64,000 bases of DNA, taken from assembly GCF_000237825.1 (NCBI RefSeq), contig NZ_CM001377.1, positions 992,001-1,056,000 on the forward strand, given 5' to 3'. This document shows, piece after piece, positions 1-54,389 of this stretch. Both the position numbers and the translations under genes were made by a program. This DNA is from Thermanaerovibrio velox DSM 12556 (lineage in GTDB: Bacteria > Synergistota > Synergistia > Synergistales > Synergistaceae). The notes under the pieces were generated by a model. The model was not told the origin of the DNA and searched no databases. It worked only from the letters and a program-made list of their open reading frames with translations. The first letter of the stretch is position 1. Each line of letters opens with the position of its first letter.

Positions 1-1966
1 ACCTCTCATCGAGTCTGGCTCTCAAGCCCTTGTATAATATCTCGTACAGCAAGGTGCTCTTCCCGGATCCAGAAACCCCGCTAAGGGCCCCCAACACCCC
101 CAATGGGAAGCTAACATCCACATCCTTCAAGTTGTTTTCACGACAACCTTTAATGGATAGGTGCCCTTTCGGGGTCCTCCGCCCACCAGGAAGTGTAACC
201 CTGCCGTCATCTTCTCCCCTTAGGTAAACAGCTGTAGCACTGTCACCCTTCTCAAAACTAGGCATTGGACCGCTAGCGACGAGCTTTCCTCCACGTTCCC
301 CTGCTCCAGGCCCAAGTTCAATCAGGTAATCTCCTGCCTTCATGGTTTCCCTATCATGCTCGACCAATACAACCGTATTCCCAAGGTCTTTGATGGCCTT
401 CAGCGTATCAAGAAGGCGTCCGGTGTCCCTGGGGTGTAAACCTATGGTGGGCTCATCTAACACGTAAAGGACACCTGTCAGCTTCGATCCTATCTGTGTA
501 GCCAGCCTTATCCTCTGAGTTTCCCCTCCGCTTAGGCTGTCCGCCCTTCGCGACAGGGACAGATATCCAGCCCCTACGTTACACATGAAGGACAGCCGCC
601 TTACCACCTCATCAAGAGCCACCTGAACAACCAACAACCTGGCTTCATCCAATTTAACATCCATTAGAAGCTGGAGAAGCCTCTCCACTGGCATATCGCT
701 AAGCTGATCTATGGTATGACCAGCAAACTTAACTGCTAAGGCTTCCGGCCTAAGCCTACGGCCCCCACAAGCCGAGCACGGGGATTCATCCCTATAACGT
801 GCCAATTCCTCCCGCACCGAATCGGAGTCAGTTCTATCCCAACGTCTTTCCAACCAAGGGATGAGCCCCTCGTATCTACCAACATATTCATCACCTGTCT
901 CCTTAAAAGGCAGGGATAACCTAATGTCCGATCCGCTGATTATCGCCTTTTTTACAGATTCATCCAACTCACCGTAAGGAACGCTTAAATCCCACCCCAT
1001 GACCGAAGCAAGCCTTTGTAGCTTGCCAAGCATGTAGTGCCCTGGCTTCCAAGGCAATATCCCCCCATCCATCACCGACATCCCCGGGATTATCGCTAGG
1101 TGCTCGGAGAAAAATTCACGACTTCCCAACCCTGAACACTTGGGACAAGCCCCTTTGGGGCTGTTAAAGGAGAACAAAGCAGGGTCAAGCTCTGGGATGC
1201 TCACCCCGCAGGATGGGCAAATGTACTGCTCCGTAAGGTCCATCCAGTCATCCCCGAACTCAAACCGCACAAAGCCACCAGACAACCTGACAGATGCCTC
1301 TATGGCCTCCACCAAACGACCCCTTCTATCCTCGTCCAGGGTAAAACGATCCACCAGGACGGAGATATCATGCCTCGTGTTCTTGTTAAGAGCTATCTCC
1401 TCATCAAGCCAAAGCAGCGAGCCATCCACCTTAACCCGCATGAAGCCCTGTTTTCGCAAAGAATCCAACAGGTTCTTAAATTCGCCCTTTTTACCACGCA
1501 CCATGGGGGCATAGACTTCAAGTTTAGAATGGTTAAACCTGGAGAAAACCAGATCCACCATCTCATCCACCGAGTGTTTCACCACCGGCTCGCCACACGA
1601 AGGACAGTATGGCTGTCCCGCCCTGCTGAAGAGCAGCCTTAGATAATCGTATATCTCAGTGACAGTGCCTACCGTAGATCTTGGATTGTGTCCCGTACCC
1701 TTTTGCTCTATTGATATGGCCGGTGATAGCCCGGTGATTTCGTCCACATCGGGTTTATCCTGCATGCCAAGAAACTGCCTTGCGTAAGCCGAAAGGGACT
1801 CAACGTAACGCCTCTGCCCCTCTGCATAAAGGGTATCAAACGCAAGAGATGACTTCCCTGACCCAGAGGGACCTGTTATAACCGTAATGGTATTTTTAGG
1901 AATGTCTACGTCTATCCCTTGAAGATTGTGTTGTCTTGCTCCCCTTATTCTTATTATGTCCTCCAA
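1..1966 (-). CDS. uvrA: UvrABC excinuclease subunit A (partial, N-terminal two thirds)
   Basis: UvrA is the damage-recognition ABC ATPase of nucleotide excision repair; it loads UvrB on DNA. About 655 residues are visible; the family has about 940, so the C-terminal part lies beyond the left edge. In order: Walker A GPSGSGKS at residues 32-39, a zinc module with two CxxC pairs (CPSCG, CPKC), a further CxxC pair (CSACGG), the ABC signature LSGGETQRIRL, Walker B YVLDEPT, and the second Walker A GVSGSGKST near the edge. The TTG start is chosen because AGAGGG lies 7 nt upstream. It overlaps the 3' end of uvrB by 71 nt in another frame, so the two are probably translationally coupled. Confidence 0.96.
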   Translation of the reverse strand, partial: MEDIIRIRGARQHNLQGIDVDIPKNTITVITGPSGSGKSSLAFDTLYAEGQRRYVESLSAYARQFLGMQDKPDVDEITGLSPAISIEQKGTGHNPRSTVGTVTEIYDYLRLLFSRAGQPYCPSCGEPVVKHSVDEMVDLVFSRFNHSKLEVYAPMVRGKKGEFKNLLDSLRKQGFMRVKVDGSLLWLDEEIALNKNTRHDISVLVDRFTLDEDRRGRLVEAIEASVRLSGGFVRFEFGDDWMDLTEQYICPSCGVSIPELDPALFSFNSPKGACPKCSGLGSREFFSEHLAIIPGMSVMDGGILPWKPGHYMLGKLQRLASVMGWDLSVPYGELDESVKKAIISGSDIRLSLPFKETGDEYVGRYEGLIPWLERRWDRTDSDSVREELARYRDESPCSACGGRRLRPEALAVKFAGHTIDQLSDMPVERLLQLLMDVKLDEARLLVVQVALDEVVRRLSFMCNVGAGYLSLSRRADSLSGGETQRIRLATQIGSKLTGVLYVLDEPTIGLHPRDTGRLLDTLKAIKDLGNTVVLVEHDRETMKAGDYLIELGPGAGERGGKLVASGPMPSFEKGDSATAVYLRGEDDGRVTLPGGRRTPKGHLSIKGCRENNLKDVDVSFPLGVLGALSGVSGSGKSTLLYEILYKGLRARLDER

Positions 1967-3938
1967 CGTTTTTCCCTCTTTCCAACCGCATGGCAGCTAT
2001 GCCATCCCTAAGCCTGGCGGCTTCCTCAAAATCAAGCCTTGCCACCGCTTCCCACATAAGCCTCTCCATCTCTTCCAGACCCATCGGATACTCAACCCGC
2101 TTCTCCTTGGGACCCGAATGCATCTGCAGGTCTTCAGGCAAAAGGGATCTTACTTCCTTCACTATCGAGCGGGGCTCAATCCCCATTTTCTTGTTGTAAT
2201 CCTCCTGTATCCTACGTCTCCTCAGCGTCTCCTCCATCGCACGCCTCATGCTGTCGGTGACGGAGTCCCCGTAAAGGATCACTCGACCTGCATTATTTCT
2301 CGCGGCCCTTCCTATCATCTGTATTAGGGATCGGAAGGACCTAAGATAACCCTCTTTATCTGCCTCCAATATGGCAACCAATGACACCTCAGGCAGGTCT
2401 ATGCCTTCCCTTAACAGGTTAACCCCCACAAGGGTAGAAAAGGCTCGAGCCCTAAGGTCACGAAGAAGTTCCGCTCTCTCAAAGGCATTGAGGTCGCCGT
2501 GTATGTATCTAACTTTTATCCCCATCCCCTCTACATACTGAGATAGGTCCTCTGCAGAGCGCTTTGTAAGGGTCGTAACGAGCGAACATCCTCCCCTGTC
2601 CTGTTCAGATCGAAGCTCACCGATAAGATCCTCAACCTGGTTGGATGCAGGACGGACCTCTACCACAGGATCTAGCACACCGGTGGGACGGATTATCTGC
2701 TCCACCACCCTCTGGCTGGTGGAGAGCTCATAATCCCCAGGAGTCGCTGATACGAAAATAACCGTCCTCATGTACTCCTCGAACTCATCAAACCTAAGCG
2801 GCCTGTTGTCCAAGCAGGATGGCAACCTAAAACCGTGTTCCACGAGGATCTCCTTCCGGGCCCTATCCCCATTGTACATACCCCTAACCTGAGGTATGGT
2901 TATATGTGACTCATCTATGAATAGAAGATAATCCTCAGGGAAAAAGTCCATAAGGGTACCTGGTGGTTCTCCCGGGGACCTGCCCTCCAGATGCCTGGAG
3001 TAGTTCTCTATGCCTGAACAGTAACCTACCTGGTTCAGCATCTCAAGGTCGTAACGAGTCCTAGACTCTAACCTCTGAGCTTCGAGAAGCTTCCCATTAG
3101 CTTTTAGCTCCATCAATCGGGCCCCAAGCTCCTCTTCAATGGCCTTCATGGCCCTTCCCATGGTCTCCTTATCGGTTACATAGTGTTGAGCTGGGAACAC
3201 CGCGCCGTCATCTTTGCTACTAAGGACTTTTGAAGTCAAAGGATCTATCTCCAGTATATCCTCTACTACATCATCCTCAAAAACCACTCGAAGGGCGCTG
3301 TCACTGTAGGACGGGTATATATCTATAACATCTCCTCGTACGCGAAACGTCCCAGGCTCAAAGGCCACATCGTTTCTTGCGTAGAATATGTCCACAAGCC
3401 GCCCCATGAATTCCCTTCTTGGATGCTCCTCTCCCTTCCGAAATCTAAATATCGCTTCTTCATAATTTTTCTTCTTCCCAAGACCATATATGCAGGAGAC
3501 ACTGGCTACCACTATCACATCCCTTCGCTCCACCAGGGCTTTTGTAGCAGCCAGTCTCAGCTTTTCTATGCGATCGTTTATGGACGCGTCCTTCTCAATG
3601 TAAACATCCTGAGCGGGAAGATATGCCTCGGGCTGATAGTAGTCATAATAACTCACAAAGTACTGCACCGAATTTTCCGGGAAGAACTCCTTGAACTCAG
3701 AGTAAAGCTGGGCCGCCAATGTCTTGTTGTGAGCCAACACCAGGGCGGGGCGCTGGAGAGCCTCTATAACCTTAGCCATGGTAAAAGTCTTCCCGCTGCC
3801 CGTGACCCCCAAAAGCGTCTGTCTTGAGAGCCCCTCCCTTACACCTCCTACCAAAAGCTCTATGGCCTTTGGCTGATCACCCGCGGGGGGCCACGGACTC
3901 TTAAGTGCAAAGGGTCTCAATCTATCCACCCCAATCAA
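1896..3938 (-). CDS. uvrB: UvrABC excinuclease subunit B
   Basis: UvrB is the DNA-probing helicase-like subunit of the UvrABC nuclease. The 680-residue product has the full architecture: PAGDQPKAI near the start, Walker A GVTGSGKT at about residues 44-51, the beta-hairpin region YYDYYQPEAYLP that holds the damaged strand, the DEAD-like box FIDESH, the C-terminal helicase motif QMIGRAARN, and a final UVR motif of the kind that contacts UvrC. The start is uncertain: the longest frame starts at TTG 3938, but TTG 3920 has a better ribosome site (GGGGTGG, 5 nt away). A hairpin separates it from ftsH upstream, and uvrA follows with an overlap. Confidence 0.97.
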   Translation of the reverse strand: MIGVDRLRPFALKSPWPPAGDQPKAIELLVGGVREGLSRQTLLGVTGSGKTFTMAKVIEALQRPALVLAHNKTLAAQLYSEFKEFFPENSVQYFVSYYDYYQPEAYLPAQDVYIEKDASINDRIEKLRLAATKALVERRDVIVVASVSCIYGLGKKKNYEEAIFRFRKGEEHPRREFMGRLVDIFYARNDVAFEPGTFRVRGDVIDIYPSYSDSALRVVFEDDVVEDILEIDPLTSKVLSSKDDGAVFPAQHYVTDKETMGRAMKAIEEELGARLMELKANGKLLEAQRLESRTRYDLEMLNQVGYCSGIENYSRHLEGRSPGEPPGTLMDFFPEDYLLFIDESHITIPQVRGMYNGDRARKEILVEHGFRLPSCLDNRPLRFDEFEEYMRTVIFVSATPGDYELSTSQRVVEQIIRPTGVLDPVVEVRPASNQVEDLIGELRSEQDRGGCSLVTTLTKRSAEDLSQYVEGMGIKVRYIHGDLNAFERAELLRDLRARAFSTLVGVNLLREGIDLPEVSLVAILEADKEGYLRSFRSLIQMIGRAARNNAGRVILYGDSVTDSMRRAMEETLRRRRIQEDYNKKMGIEPRSIVKEVRSLLPEDLQMHSGPKEKRVEYPMGLEEMERLMWEAVARLDFEEAARLRDGIAAMRLERGKNVGGHNKNKGSKTTQSSRDRRRHS

Positions 3939-48884: not shown

Positions 48885-50207
48885 TCACTGAGATTGGTCC
48901 TCCTTGTTCCTGAACCAGATCCTTATAGGCGTACCTTCAAAATCCCCCATGGATCTTATAAGTTTCTCAAGGCGCCTCGTAAATGATCTATCCGCCAGTT
49001 CTCTATGATTAACAAAGAAGATGAACGTAGGGGGCGCCATGTCCGCCTGGGTCACATAATATATCTTCAGGTACCTACCCTTCCCATCTCCTGGCATCCT
49101 CTCAAACTGAAGGGTGTCACGAAGGAGCCTGTTCAGATCCGCGGTCTTAAGCCTTCTCAACCGGTTATTGTATGCCCTAGCTATCAGCTCAGGTACCTTC
49201 TGAATTCCCCTACCGGTCTTGGCGGATAGGAAAACCATCGGCGCGTAAGATAATGTAGGCAGTTCATCCCTTATCCTATCCCTTATACGGTCCCCAAGAT
49301 CCTCAGAAGGGGTAAGGAGATCCCACTTGTTGACCCCAATAACCAATCCCTTCCCCCGCTCCTCCACGTGAAGCATCAGCCTTTTGTCTTGTTCGGTAAG
49401 CATCTCTGAAGCATCCATCAGGAGCAAGGCCACGTGAGACCTGTCTATGGCCTTTAAGGTTCTGACCACCGAATAATACTCCAACGAGTCATCGACCCGG
49501 CTCTTTCTCCTAAGCCCAGCGGTATCCATTATCCTAAACTTGAGCTGATTCCACTGGAAATCTACGTCCACAGTATCCCTAGTGGTACCAGGGATCGGAC
49601 TTACCACCGCCCGTTCCTCCCCTATAAGGCGGTTAAAGAGGGATGACTTACCGACGTTTGGACGACCCACTATGGAAAACCTTATGGCCCCTTCGTCATC
49701 CTCAACAGGTTCATCATCAGGTAGAGACGAAGCCACCGCATCCAAAAGATCACCCATGTTTATACCATGCTCAACGCTTATGCCCATCACCAGGGGAAAC
49801 CCCAGGGAGTAAGCGTCAAGAACGTTGTCTTCCCTCTTGGGATTGTCTATCTTGTTCATGGCCACAACCACCGGCTTAGAAGACCTCCTCAACATTTCAG
49901 CTATGGCCTCATCACCGGCAGTTACACCCTCTTTACCATCCAAGAGGAATATGACCACATCGCACTCTTTCAGGGCGATCTCCACCTGACGCCTTATGGC
50001 ATCCTGGAAAGGATGCGGGGAAGCGGGTTCTATGCCCCCCGTATCAACAAGGTAAAACCTCTTTCCGTCCCACTCCGTCTCCGCATACAACCTATCCCTG
50101 GTAACACCCGGAATGTCCTCCACTATGGCCAACTTTTTCCCCACAAGACGATTAAAAAGGGACGACTTACCAACGTTTGGCCGCCCCACTATAGCCACCA
50201 CGGACAA
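48885..50207 (-). CDS. der: ribosome-assembly GTPase Der
   Basis: Der (EngA) has two GTPase domains and helps to assemble the 50S subunit. The 440-residue product has GRPNVGKSSLFNRLVG with DTGG and NKID in domain 1, GRPNVGKSSLFNRLIG with DTAGLR and NKWD in domain 2, and a KH-like C-terminal domain (about 355-440). TTG 50207 is taken because GGAGGTG lies 6 nt upstream and the reading begins SVVAIVGRPN. The frame upstream lacks signals. priA ends 105 nt before it. Confidence 0.97.
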   Translation of the reverse strand: MSVVAIVGRPNVGKSSLFNRLVGKKLAIVEDIPGVTRDRLYAETEWDGKRFYLVDTGGIEPASPHPFQDAIRRQVEIALKECDVVIFLLDGKEGVTAGDEAIAEMLRRSSKPVVVAMNKIDNPKREDNVLDAYSLGFPLVMGISVEHGINMGDLLDAVASSLPDDEPVEDDEGAIRFSIVGRPNVGKSSLFNRLIGEERAVVSPIPGTTRDTVDVDFQWNQLKFRIMDTAGLRRKSRVDDSLEYYSVVRTLKAIDRSHVALLLMDASEMLTEQDKRLMLHVEERGKGLVIGVNKWDLLTPSEDLGDRIRDRIRDELPTLSYAPMVFLSAKTGRGIQKVPELIARAYNNRLRRLKTADLNRLLRDTLQFERMPGDGKGRYLKIYYVTQADMAPPTFIFFVNHRELADRSFTRRLEKLIRSMGDFEGTPIRIWFRNKEDQSQ

Positions 50208-50312
50208 AGAGATCACCTCCTCACATAAAAAGTAAACTGCAAACCATCGGATCGAAAACCCCAAGACAAAGGACAAATGAACCCAACAACCAAGCGTAAC
50301 GATGACTAATCA

Positions 50313-52094
50313 CTAATCACTGAACACCCAAACCACCGGCAGCTTGGATGTGAGCCGCAGAGGGGGTGGGAGACAAGACATAACAGCCCCTACGTCCGCA
50401 TCCCTGGACAGTTTAACCGTAAAACCTTCAGCATCCTCGGCAAACCCCATTATGCCCCCCGACGATTCAAGCCCCGCAAGGGCAACCCTGAAGGCCTCCA
50501 ACGACGACGGTTCCACCCTTATCTTTAGAACCTTAGTAAAGGGTGGCATCCCTAGGGCTAAACGCTCTTTAATCTCTAATTCCCAAAAACGCCTCCAGCC
50601 GGATCTTAAAAATCGTCTCCAGCCACGAGCCGGGCGCAGGGTCTGGACCAGCAAAGTCCTCCCCTCTGGGGATTTACCTCGCCAAAGGGACTCCCACATG
50701 AGGGAAAGCGCTCGGAAATCCCTATCGTATCCGGCCTTTGAAAATCCCTCGGTATCGGCTTCTAACCAGGCAGCCAGGCTAACATCCCAGAGATCGCAAA
50801 GGGATAACACCGACCTGGTGCCAACAGCAAGAAACGGTGGTTTCGCCCCCTTGATCAGATCTTTAACTTGGGACTCCAGCATGTCACCGTCAAAGTATAG
50901 TACGCGGTGGTCACGGAACCTTTGCCTCGCCTCTTCCACAACCGCCTGGAGCCCCACCCTTCCCATCTCAAAAAACGGGCCACCACAAATCGGACAGCGT
51001 TCCGGCGATTCCCTGGAATCACCGCAAGAAGGGCATCTAATAACCCCCGACTCCGCATCAAGCCTCATCGCAGCCTCGCAAGAGACGCACTTTATATCCT
51101 CACCGCAATCCAGGCATACAAGATATCCCGCATAGCCCTTTCTATCAAGGATCCAAAGTGCCACATTGCCAGCCCTCAAAGCTCTTCGCGTATTGTTTAT
51201 CAACGAATAGGATAAGAGACCACCTACGCCGCTGGACCCATTAGGTTTAACCAACATCACCCTTTTGGCCGCTGTTAGATCCCCCTCAGGCCTTCGGGCA
51301 CACCGAAGGAAAACCTTGGAGGAGGGCAGCCTGGACCCCAAAAGCAGCTGCACACCAGATACTCTGCACCTTTCAACCACCATGGCCCGGATTGAAAACG
51401 TGGGGTAGGAGATAGGGATCCAAGCATCGGAGCTCTCATCGTCCATAAAGACCCGCCACCCCGGAGGAAAGGGCAAAAAGGCAGCCCCATGAGATCCCAC
51501 CACAACCTCTACGTCACCACTAAGCATCCTTAGATAGGCTTTACGTTGAGATGAGGGGGATGAGGGCCACTCCAAAACTTTAAACCCTTCTCTTCTAAGG
51601 AGCTCCCCCTGAACAGCTGCTAATTGCCTCTGAGGGAAGAGGGCTACGAGTCTGGGGCCATACATTCGGGCCGCCTCAAGCACCCGGTCATGATCAGAAG
51701 GTAAGAGGACGTGTTCCATAAGGGGTTTCCGATCCTCCCGGATATCCACCCTGGGAAGAAGGATAGGGGCAGACGGTTTGTCCTGGTAAACCCAACGGGG
51801 CGCCACAAGCTCCAAAACCTTCCCCATGGGGATTCCAAGCCACTTGGAGGACCATCCAACCAGATACCACAGGTCCTGGGGTAACGGACTCCCTAAGACC
51901 TTCGATATGGACTTGAGCTCCCCAAGCACCCCGATCGAAGTCTCCAACGAAGATACCGTCACAACCCCGAAGGCATCCCTTCCTCCCCTTCCAAGGGGCA
52001 CCTTAACAGGGACACCCTCTTCCAAAGGTTCATCCCATAAATACGTGAGAGGCCCCCGCCAAGGACCTGCTATCAGGACCCCCAGCGTAAACAC
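50313..52094 (-). CDS. priA: PriA-like primosomal protein N' lacking helicase motifs
   Basis: PriA restarts stalled replication forks. The 593-residue product (family about 730) keeps the N-terminal DNA-binding start (VLIAGPWRGPLTYLWDE) and eight cysteines of the two zinc sites (C327, C330, C336, C339, C354, C357, C367, C370). The ATPase motifs are lost: VLLPSDHDRV (129-138) stands where Walker A GxTGSGKT should be, MDDESSD replaces DEEH, LLGSRLPSS replaces GSATPS, and the late GRAGR is absent. It is probably an ATPase-dead PriA, as reported in some Actinobacteria. It lies between coaBC and der; the coaBC-priA neighbourhood supports orthology. Confidence 0.85.
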   Translation of the reverse strand: MFTLGVLIAGPWRGPLTYLWDEPLEEGVPVKVPLGRGGRDAFGVVTVSSLETSIGVLGELKSISKVLGSPLPQDLWYLVGWSSKWLGIPMGKVLELVAPRWVYQDKPSAPILLPRVDIREDRKPLMEHVLLPSDHDRVLEAARMYGPRLVALFPQRQLAAVQGELLRREGFKVLEWPSSPSSQRKAYLRMLSGDVEVVVGSHGAAFLPFPPGWRVFMDDESSDAWIPISYPTFSIRAMVVERCRVSGVQLLLGSRLPSSKVFLRCARRPEGDLTAAKRVMLVKPNGSSGVGGLLSYSLINNTRRALRAGNVALWILDRKGYAGYLVCLDCGEDIKCVSCEAAMRLDAESGVIRCPSCGDSRESPERCPICGGPFFEMGRVGLQAVVEEARQRFRDHRVLYFDGDMLESQVKDLIKGAKPPFLAVGTRSVLSLCDLWDVSLAAWLEADTEGFSKAGYDRDFRALSLMWESLWRGKSPEGRTLLVQTLRPARGWRRFLRSGWRRFWELEIKERLALGMPPFTKVLKIRVEPSSLEAFRVALAGLESSGGIMGFAEDAEGFTVKLSRDADVGAVMSCLPPPLRLTSKLPVVWVFSD

Positions 52095-52098
52095 TAAC

Positions 52099-53316
52099 TT
52101 ACTTGGCCCCCTCCATCATCACAGCCACCCGATCAAGGATCATATGGGACACGTCCTCCTTGCTCCCGGAGAACTCAAACCGCCCACCGCTCCTATCCAG
52201 CATGACAACCCTGTTAGTATCAACTCCGAAACCGCAACCTTCTTCGGTAACGTCATTAGCCACTATGGCGTCAAGCCCCTTAGCGTTCATCTTTTTTACG
52301 GCGTTCTCATCTAGATTGTTCGTCTCCGCAGCAAAACCGATCAGTATCTGAGATTCCCCCTTCTCCTCCCCCAATCTGGCAGCAATATCTGGGTTGCTAA
52401 ACAATTCCAGCGTAAGCCTTTCCCTTCCCTCTCTCTTTATCTTCGATGAACTGGGGGTCGCAACCCTATAATCACCCACCGCAGCGGCTTTTATGATCAC
52501 ATCCACATCTCGGTTCTCCATGCATCTTAAGAGCATGTCCTCCGCTGAGATCACCGGTATAAACCTAACCCCCGGGACATCCACGGACACCCCAGGACCA
52601 CATACCAATGTGACATCTCCACCCCGGTACCATGCAGCCCTGGCTAATTCAACCCCCATCTTCCCAGAGCTCGGATTGCTTATAAACCTTACAGGGTCTA
52701 TAAACTCCCAGGTAGGACCCGCGGTTATTAGGAAAGACCTGCCGCTGAACGATCTGTCCGGGCAAAGAGACCTCCAGGTGTGTTCCACCAAGACCTCCGT
52801 GGCAGGAAGACGCCCCTTCCCTTCATAGCCACAGGCAAGTGCCCCCTCCTCCGGCGGAATCACCTGATACCCCCACTGGAGACAAGTCGAAACGTTTTGC
52901 TGGGTAGCCTTGTGCTCCCACATGTGCACGTTCATGGCTGGAAAGATCAAAACCGGACATCGGGCCGCCAAAAGGGTAGCCCCCAACAGCGTGTCCGAAG
53001 ATCCTGCGGCAGCGATGCTCAACACGTTGGCGGTACATGGGGCTATTACAAACACCTCCGCCCAGTCCGCCAAATTTATGTGGGGAATCTGGTATCCCCT
53101 TGAAGGATTAAGAAAGTCCTCCTCCAACCAACAGCGCCGGCCCGTCAACGTGGAGATGACCAAGGGACTTACAAAGGCCTCCGCTCCCTTGGTCAAAATA
53201 ACCTCCACCTCGCACTCCGACCTGCGAAGGTGTCTTATGTAGTCCAATATCTTGTAAGCAGATATGCCACCGGATACCCCTACAAGGATCCGGCGCCCCC
53301 TCTTCCAAGCAGGCAA
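52099..53316 (-). CDS. coaBC: bifunctional phosphopantothenoylcysteine decarboxylase / phosphopantothenate-cysteine ligase
   Basis: It carries out two steps of coenzyme A synthesis. The 405-residue product has the CoaC flavin part with VGVSGGISAYKILD, PHINLADWAEVFVIAPCTAN with the active His and Asn, and the FPAMNVHMW clamp, followed by the CoaB part with ITAGPTWEFIDPVRFISNPS, IKAAAVGDYR and LIGFAAETNN. Near the end DAIVANDV is typical. TTG start; it begins 1 nt after the rpoZ stop. Confidence 0.96.
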   Translation of the reverse strand: MPAWKRGRRILVGVSGGISAYKILDYIRHLRRSECEVEVILTKGAEAFVSPLVISTLTGRRCWLEEDFLNPSRGYQIPHINLADWAEVFVIAPCTANVLSIAAAGSSDTLLGATLLAARCPVLIFPAMNVHMWEHKATQQNVSTCLQWGYQVIPPEEGALACGYEGKGRLPATEVLVEHTWRSLCPDRSFSGRSFLITAGPTWEFIDPVRFISNPSSGKMGVELARAAWYRGGDVTLVCGPGVSVDVPGVRFIPVISAEDMLLRCMENRDVDVIIKAAAVGDYRVATPSSSKIKREGRERLTLELFSNPDIAARLGEEKGESQILIGFAAETNNLDENAVKKMNAKGLDAIVANDVTEEGCGFGVDTNRVVMLDRSGGRFEFSGSKEDVSHMILDRVAVMMEGAK

Positions 53317-53551: not shown

Positions 53552-54145
53552 TCAACACCTCCCACTGAATTTCCTATGGCGCTCTATTATTTTTATAAGG
53601 TCCTCTGCGGCATAATCCACCTGATCGTTAACCACCCTATACTGATACTCCCCAGCGTGGGAAAGCTCATCTATCGCATTTTTAAGACGCAGGGACATCT
53701 CCCGCTCCTCTTCGGTTCCACGCCCCTGGAGACGGTGCTCCAACTCCTCCACCGATGGGGGCGCCACAAAGATGGTTACCGCTTCGGGTATCCTTTGCCT
53801 AACCTGCTTTGCCCCCTGGACATCTATCTCAAGAACCACATCCCTGCCCTGTGCAAGCATCCGTTCAATGTCGTCCGCACTAGTACCATAGTACTTGCCG
53901 TGCACGCAGGCCCACTCCAGGAAGACTCCCTCATCTATCATACGCTTAAACTCTTCCTCCGACACAAACCTGTACTCAACCCCATCTGTCTCCCCTGGCC
54001 TTGGAGACCTGGTGGTGTAGGATACCGAATAGAAGAGATCCGGAAGCCTGTCAAAAAGCATCTTACGAAGGGTCCCCTTACCGGCTCCACTGGGACCGGA
54101 TATCACAAAGAGGGTTCCCCTTCGGAGCTCGTTATTCTCCATCAT
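53552..54145 (-). CDS. gmk: guanylate kinase
   Basis: It phosphorylates GMP to GDP. The 197-residue product has Walker [14 protein letters not shown], the GMP-binding [20 protein letters not shown], and the lid region. ATG 54145 or 54142 are both possible; GGAGGGGG lies upstream. Its start overlaps the end of remA by 14 nt, as is common for this pair. Confidence 0.97.
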
Positions 54146-54389
54146 CGACGGCCCCCTCCGTTGAAAATCGGTTTGAAAGCGTCTCCGGCTGAAGGGCGGA
54201 GAGTATAACGTGGCCACTGTCCATGACAAGTATGGCCCTGGTCTTTCTGCCCTGGGTAGCATCCACAAGGCGACCCTCCCGCTGAGCCTCATCCTTAAGC
54301 CTCTTTATTGGCGCAGAGGCGGGACTGATTATAGCAACTATCCTGTCCACGGAAACCATGTTACCGAAACCTACGTGCAACATCCTCAT
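54132..54389 (-). CDS. remA: RemA/DUF370 family regulatory protein
   Basis: RemA activates biofilm matrix operons in Bacillus subtilis by binding DNA as a ring-shaped oligomer. The 85-residue product has the family blocks [45 protein letters not shown] and [10 protein letters not shown]. The start is ATG 54389 or 54383. It lies between yicC and gmk, the same order as in Bacillus. The target genes in this organism are unknown. Confidence 0.93.

Follow-up and report, generated by a model that had tools for sequence, protein, structure and literature searches.

Loss of the helicase motifs from the single PriA of Thermanaerovibrio velox and its relatives across the Synergistota: a probable pseudohelicase

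How stalled replication is restarted when PriA has no recognisable motor is the question raised by a gene in a 64,000 nt stretch (the window) of the Thermanaerovibrio velox DSM 12556 genome (RefSeq contig NZ_CM001377.1; positions 992,001 to 1,056,000), which is a single contig of 1,880,838 bases. An earlier note, made from the sequence of the window, had described the gene as complete, as lying in its usual neighbourhood, and as encoding a PriA that keeps its zinc sites and has lost its helicase motifs. The open reading frame was found to be complete (593 aa, GTG start; Table 1), and encodes a full-length PriA orthologue. The neighbourhood was also as described, with priA lying between coaBC and der, the latter 36 nt downstream, and gmk found beyond coaBC. 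Across the Synergistota, coaBC adjoins priA in 69 of the 74 loci fetched, and gmk-rpoZ-coaBC-priA is also the gene order in Bacillus.

Table 1. Coordinates in the window of T. velox priA, the parts of its product and the neighbouring genes
Feature	Position	Strand	Basis
priA (putative PriA pseudohelicase, 593 aa, GTG start)	50313..52094	-	profile, phmmer, alignment, model
3'-DNA-binding domain, residues 1-104	51783..52094	-	PF17764 above cut-off, residues 6-99
Replaced P-loop: strand HVLL, loop PSDH, helix DRV; Arg137 in the catalytic Lys column	51675..51706 (approximate)	-	Arg in 66/66 Synergistota
Motif II, DEEH to DDES, residues 219-222	51427..51438	-	alignment
Motif III, GSATP to GSRLP, ~residues 254-258	51318..51332	-	alignment
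Zinc block, C327 C330 C336 C339 C354 C357 C367 C370	50984..51116	-	invariant in 66/66
Motif VI, QVAGRAGR to Synergistota motif WESxWRG, ~residues 468-479	50657..50692	-	alignment
PriA C-terminal part, reduced in length relative to E. coli, ~residues 501-593	50316..50594	-	model, with the alignment reaching residue 730 of E. coli PriA
coaBC (dfp), next gene upstream, with 4 nt between it and priA	52099..53316	-	TIGR00521, 392 bits
der (engA), downstream neighbour	48885..50276	-	TIGR03594, 528 bits
gmk, in the gmk-coaBC-priA run	53552..54292	-	TIGR03263, 246 bits

The predicted protein was aligned using phmmer with the E. coli and Klebsiella PriA structures (E ~1e-29), which showed replacement of GRAGR and of the motifs in lobe 1, but agreement at every cysteine of the Cys-rich block. 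Compared with E. coli PriA, the P-loop GVTGSGKT is replaced by LPSDHDRV, with Arg at the position of the catalytic Lys, and QVAGRAGR by WESLWRGK. With the changes to DEEH and GSATP, all four of the SF2 motifs I, II, III and VI are degenerate, and alignment to E. coli PriA revealed no intact motifs in shifted places. The earlier statement that the helicase motifs are all replaced stands for Walker A, GSATP and GRAGR, but goes a little too far for motif II, as the Asp and the second Glu of DEEH survive. The zinc sites are kept as had been claimed, with all eight cysteines present in T. velox and in 66 of 66 relatives. The 3'-DNA-binding domain (3'BD) was detected with PF17764 at 29.8 bits (cut-off 22.7). 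However, the score obtained with the PriA helicase equivalog TIGR00595 was 129 bits, below the cut-off of 230, compared with 730 bits for E. coli PriA.

An AlphaFold2 model of T. velox PriA, built on an alignment of 41 Synergistota sequences (pLDDT 87.7, pTM 0.85), predicts with confidence that the PriA fold is kept throughout, C-terminal domain included. The top match to the model in the PDB was E. coli PriA bound to a fork and PriB (8fak_H; Foldseek E 4e-34), and residues 2-593 of the model could be aligned to residues 2-730 of this structure using VIA-align (Z 25.6, 3.8 A over 570 residues) at ~20% sequence identity, with the next non-PriA family, Mfd, at Z 15. Compared with E. coli PriA (structures 8fak, 6dgd and 4nl4), the T. 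velox protein shares the 3'BD, two RecA-like lobes, the double zinc module of eight Cys within lobe 2 and the C-terminal domain, but T. velox PriA is ~140 aa shorter, and is without the Walker A motif, the DEEH histidine, GSATP and GRAGR. It also lacks the start of lobe 1 and the winged-helix domain, which spans ~residues 105-178 in E. coli, and, as the winged helix is missing, its DNA contacts would differ from those of E. coli PriA. In the model, a strand (residues 126-129) is joined to a helix (residues 134-145) by a loop of four residues, with Arg137 near the start of the helix.

A second full-length PriA was sought in the 1.88 Mb genome and none was found, the other matches to TIGR00595 being Mfd, RecG and UvrB. 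A match in the window (coordinates 1896-3938) had been considered as RecG, but was found to be UvrB; RecG is present elsewhere in the T. velox genome (L203). Among 188 Synergistota genomes, the top score with NF004067 was 282 bits, for a protein with degenerate motifs, compared with 974 bits for E. coli. No Synergistales genome searched reached 1e-60 or the curated cut-off with TIGR00595. Two deep families (f11 and f12) did pass 1e-60, with scores of 228-351 bits, and their motifs are also degenerate. The PriA of one deep-branching member (L032 in genome G035, family f12; 351 bits) keeps NRRGYAG but is without the P-loop, GSATP and GRAGR, and may preserve an early stage of motor loss.

The age of the loss was examined in a multi-phylum alignment of 66 Synergistota PriAs, drawn from all 12 families sampled, and 52 canonical PriAs. 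The helicase motifs are absent and the eight cysteines present in all 66 of the Synergistota proteins inspected. Where E. coli has K230, the lysine of Walker A, Arg is found in 66/66 of these proteins, whereas the canonical PriAs have Lys in 52/52. At column G583, which corresponds to the first Gly of GRAGR, 55 of the 66 have Trp and all 52 canonical sequences have Gly. The lost sites hold conserved replacements, among them GGRMPSS, LDRKGYAG and WESxWRG. When T. velox PriA was compared with that of the nearest congener (78% identical), dN/dS was 0.138 overall and 0.11-0.17 per domain, with a value of 0.11 in the dead lobe 1. The loss of the motor in Synergistota PriA is thus old and under selection, confirming the earlier claim that the gene is not a recent pseudogene. 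A single clade for Synergistota PriA was not rejected (p 0.74), this tree having the higher likelihood. A coupled loss of the 3'-end-binding Asp17 was also considered but was rejected, as Thr is also the usual residue at this position in canonical PriAs from other phyla.

A PriA of this kind is known from Deinococcus radiodurans, where ATPase and unwinding activity are absent although binding to ssDNA, to forks and to DnaB was measured (Lopper et al. 2015; PMC4504706). The same paper reported good conservation of the PriA helicase motifs outside the Deinococcus-Thermus phylum, and described E. coli PriA K230R as ATPase-dead and ATPase-deficient E. coli PriA as still able to assemble primosomes (PMC4504706). 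In both D. radiodurans and, judging from sequence, the Synergistota, Walker A and Walker B have failed and the Lys is replaced by Arg. However, when set against the published description of the Deinococcus protein, the Synergistota PriAs go further in having lost the Gly-rich loop, GRAGR and the winged helix, and have conserved replacement motifs of their own. In Thermus composti PriA, from the Deinococcota, sequence remains in the region of the winged helix, and the replacements differ from those in Synergistota. For interaction with DnaB, the Deinococcus protein is the only known case. A literature search for PriA with Synergistetes returned genome reports and unrelated papers, and in the literature searched a description of a PriA pseudohelicase was found for Deinococcus only. 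The kind of protein is known, but no earlier account appears to have been given of the Synergistota-wide case, of its replacement motifs or of how widely the motor has been lost.

The precedent named in the earlier note was the Actinobacteria. Actinobacterial PriA, for which UniProt carries a caution that no helicase domain is detectable, has no recognisable helicase motifs and occurs in DciA-type bacteria; T. velox PriA resembles it in these two respects. However, the best score of T. velox PriA with the PRK14873 models (NCBIfam), which we take to be those for actinobacterial PriA, was 69 bits, whereas PRK05580.1-4 gave 132 bits, and T. velox PriA is therefore not nearer to the PRK14873 subfamily. 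The assayed Deinococcus PriA (PMC4504706) is the better precedent.

It is likely that the sole PriA of T. velox is a pseudohelicase that marks forks for DciA/DnaB loading. A search of 31 genomes detected DciA in 28, among them that of T. velox, where the gene is near the dnaA end of the chromosome. In the proposed mechanism, PriA would recognise an abandoned fork or D-loop through the 3' end of the nascent leading strand and the three-way junction, as the retained 3'BD and fold suggest. No productive ATP binding and no unwinding of the lagging arm would be expected. As the P-loop is gone, its Lys is replaced by Arg, and motif VI is now a phylum-specific Trp/Arg motif, the two RecA-like lobes and the zinc module would act as a fixed scaffold. 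By analogy with Deinococcus, this scaffold would recruit DnaB, probably with DciA, onto lagging-template ssDNA, which would have to be exposed beforehand or through the action of another enzyme, for example RecG. Stalled replication in Synergistota is thus probably restarted by PriA as a passive landing platform, and the earlier proposal, that T. velox PriA serves only as a loading platform, is the best-supported reading of the protein, for which fork binding, recruitment of DnaB and loss of ATPase activity are predicted.

An alternative is that PriA in Synergistota has left restart for another DNA-binding role, with restart occurring via RecG or by direct DnaA/DciA loading. No DnaC/DnaI-type loader was identified in the T. 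velox genome, where the IstB/DnaC-type matches comprised DnaA and one weak match, in a frame of 796 aa, and no DnaD/DnaB_2 domain was found in the 31 genomes searched. Such a change of role would also agree with the divergence of several surfaces of the protein and its low identity to E. coli PriA. However, the 3'BD, the zinc module and the overall architecture are all retained, the same neighbouring gene is kept across the phylum, and fork and DnaB binding persist in the Deinococcus analogue that has been assayed (PMC4504706), making this alternative unlikely.

Even less likely is a cryptic ATPase, in which a non-canonical P-loop would bind nucleotide as a conformational switch with no unwinding. 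As D219 and E221 of motif II and, in part, motif V (GTR/GTQ) survive in T. velox PriA, weak nucleotide binding is possible on the sequence, and in Synergistota the acidic residues of motif II and motif V GT[RQ] persist, with the second Glu of DEEH kept in 66/66. However, only four residues stand in place of the Gly-rich loop in the model, the Lys is Arg in every Synergistota PriA inspected, the arginine motif GRAGR is gone, and K230R alone abolishes the ATPase activity of E. coli PriA (PMC4504706). A decaying pseudogene, or an artefact of assembly or frameshift, has nothing in its favour other than the missing motifs and is refuted by the dN/dS values, by the retention throughout the phylum, T. 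velox and its congeners included, of frames without internal stops, and by the new, conserved residues at the lost sites.

Synergistota is a second whole phylum in which loss of the PriA motor is fixed. It can now be tested whether the essential function of PriA is fork recognition and recruitment of DnaB and not unwinding, and the Synergistota PriAs would offer compact, natural motor-free scaffolds for structures with DciA and DnaB. A broader and more tentative proposal, for which the odds are judged to be against, is that PriA is more basically a scaffold for marking forks, from which the motor is often discarded, that whole deep lineages including Synergistota restart with a motorless PriA, and that the former ATP cleft (Arg, WESxWRG) has become a conserved binding surface for DciA/DnaB or SSB.

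The wider occurrence of damaged PriA motors was surveyed in 204 other bacterial genomes from 181 families, with motifs inspected in the low-scoring matches and in 52 canonical sequences, and matches above ~1e-150 counted as canonical without motif inspection. Degenerate PriA motifs were found in ~20 of the 181 sampled families, of which three (f50, f176 and f77) are only partly degenerate and one (f94) is a weak match. Thermus is among them (f31), the protein in genome G206 being identical to the PriA of Thermus composti, the query through which the Deinococcota were reached and a member of the same phylum as Deinococcus, in which a PriA pseudohelicase is proven (PMC4504706). Loss of the winged helix was considered as a mark of pseudohelicases but was rejected because some canonical PriAs are also without it. 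Two bacterial genomes (G203 and G246) gave no PriA-family match at 1e-12; the second is 0.8 Mb in one contig and 100% complete.

A quick tree of 102 rows required 6 changes of motor state, at least 3 of which are forced by starred branches. However, a single clade uniting all pseudohelicases was not rejected when the AU test was applied to a subset of 52 rows (p 0.61), and long branches meet. Extremely divergent single PriAs, with the cysteine block kept and TIGR00595 scores of 88-90 bits, are L134 (G223) and L136 (G368), both of family f48. In two further PriAs, L101 (G225) and L162 (G370), Walker A is near-normal (PPR[TS]GKTE), motif II is damaged (DGEED/SEED) and motif VI is absent, and these are possible half-way stages of motor loss.
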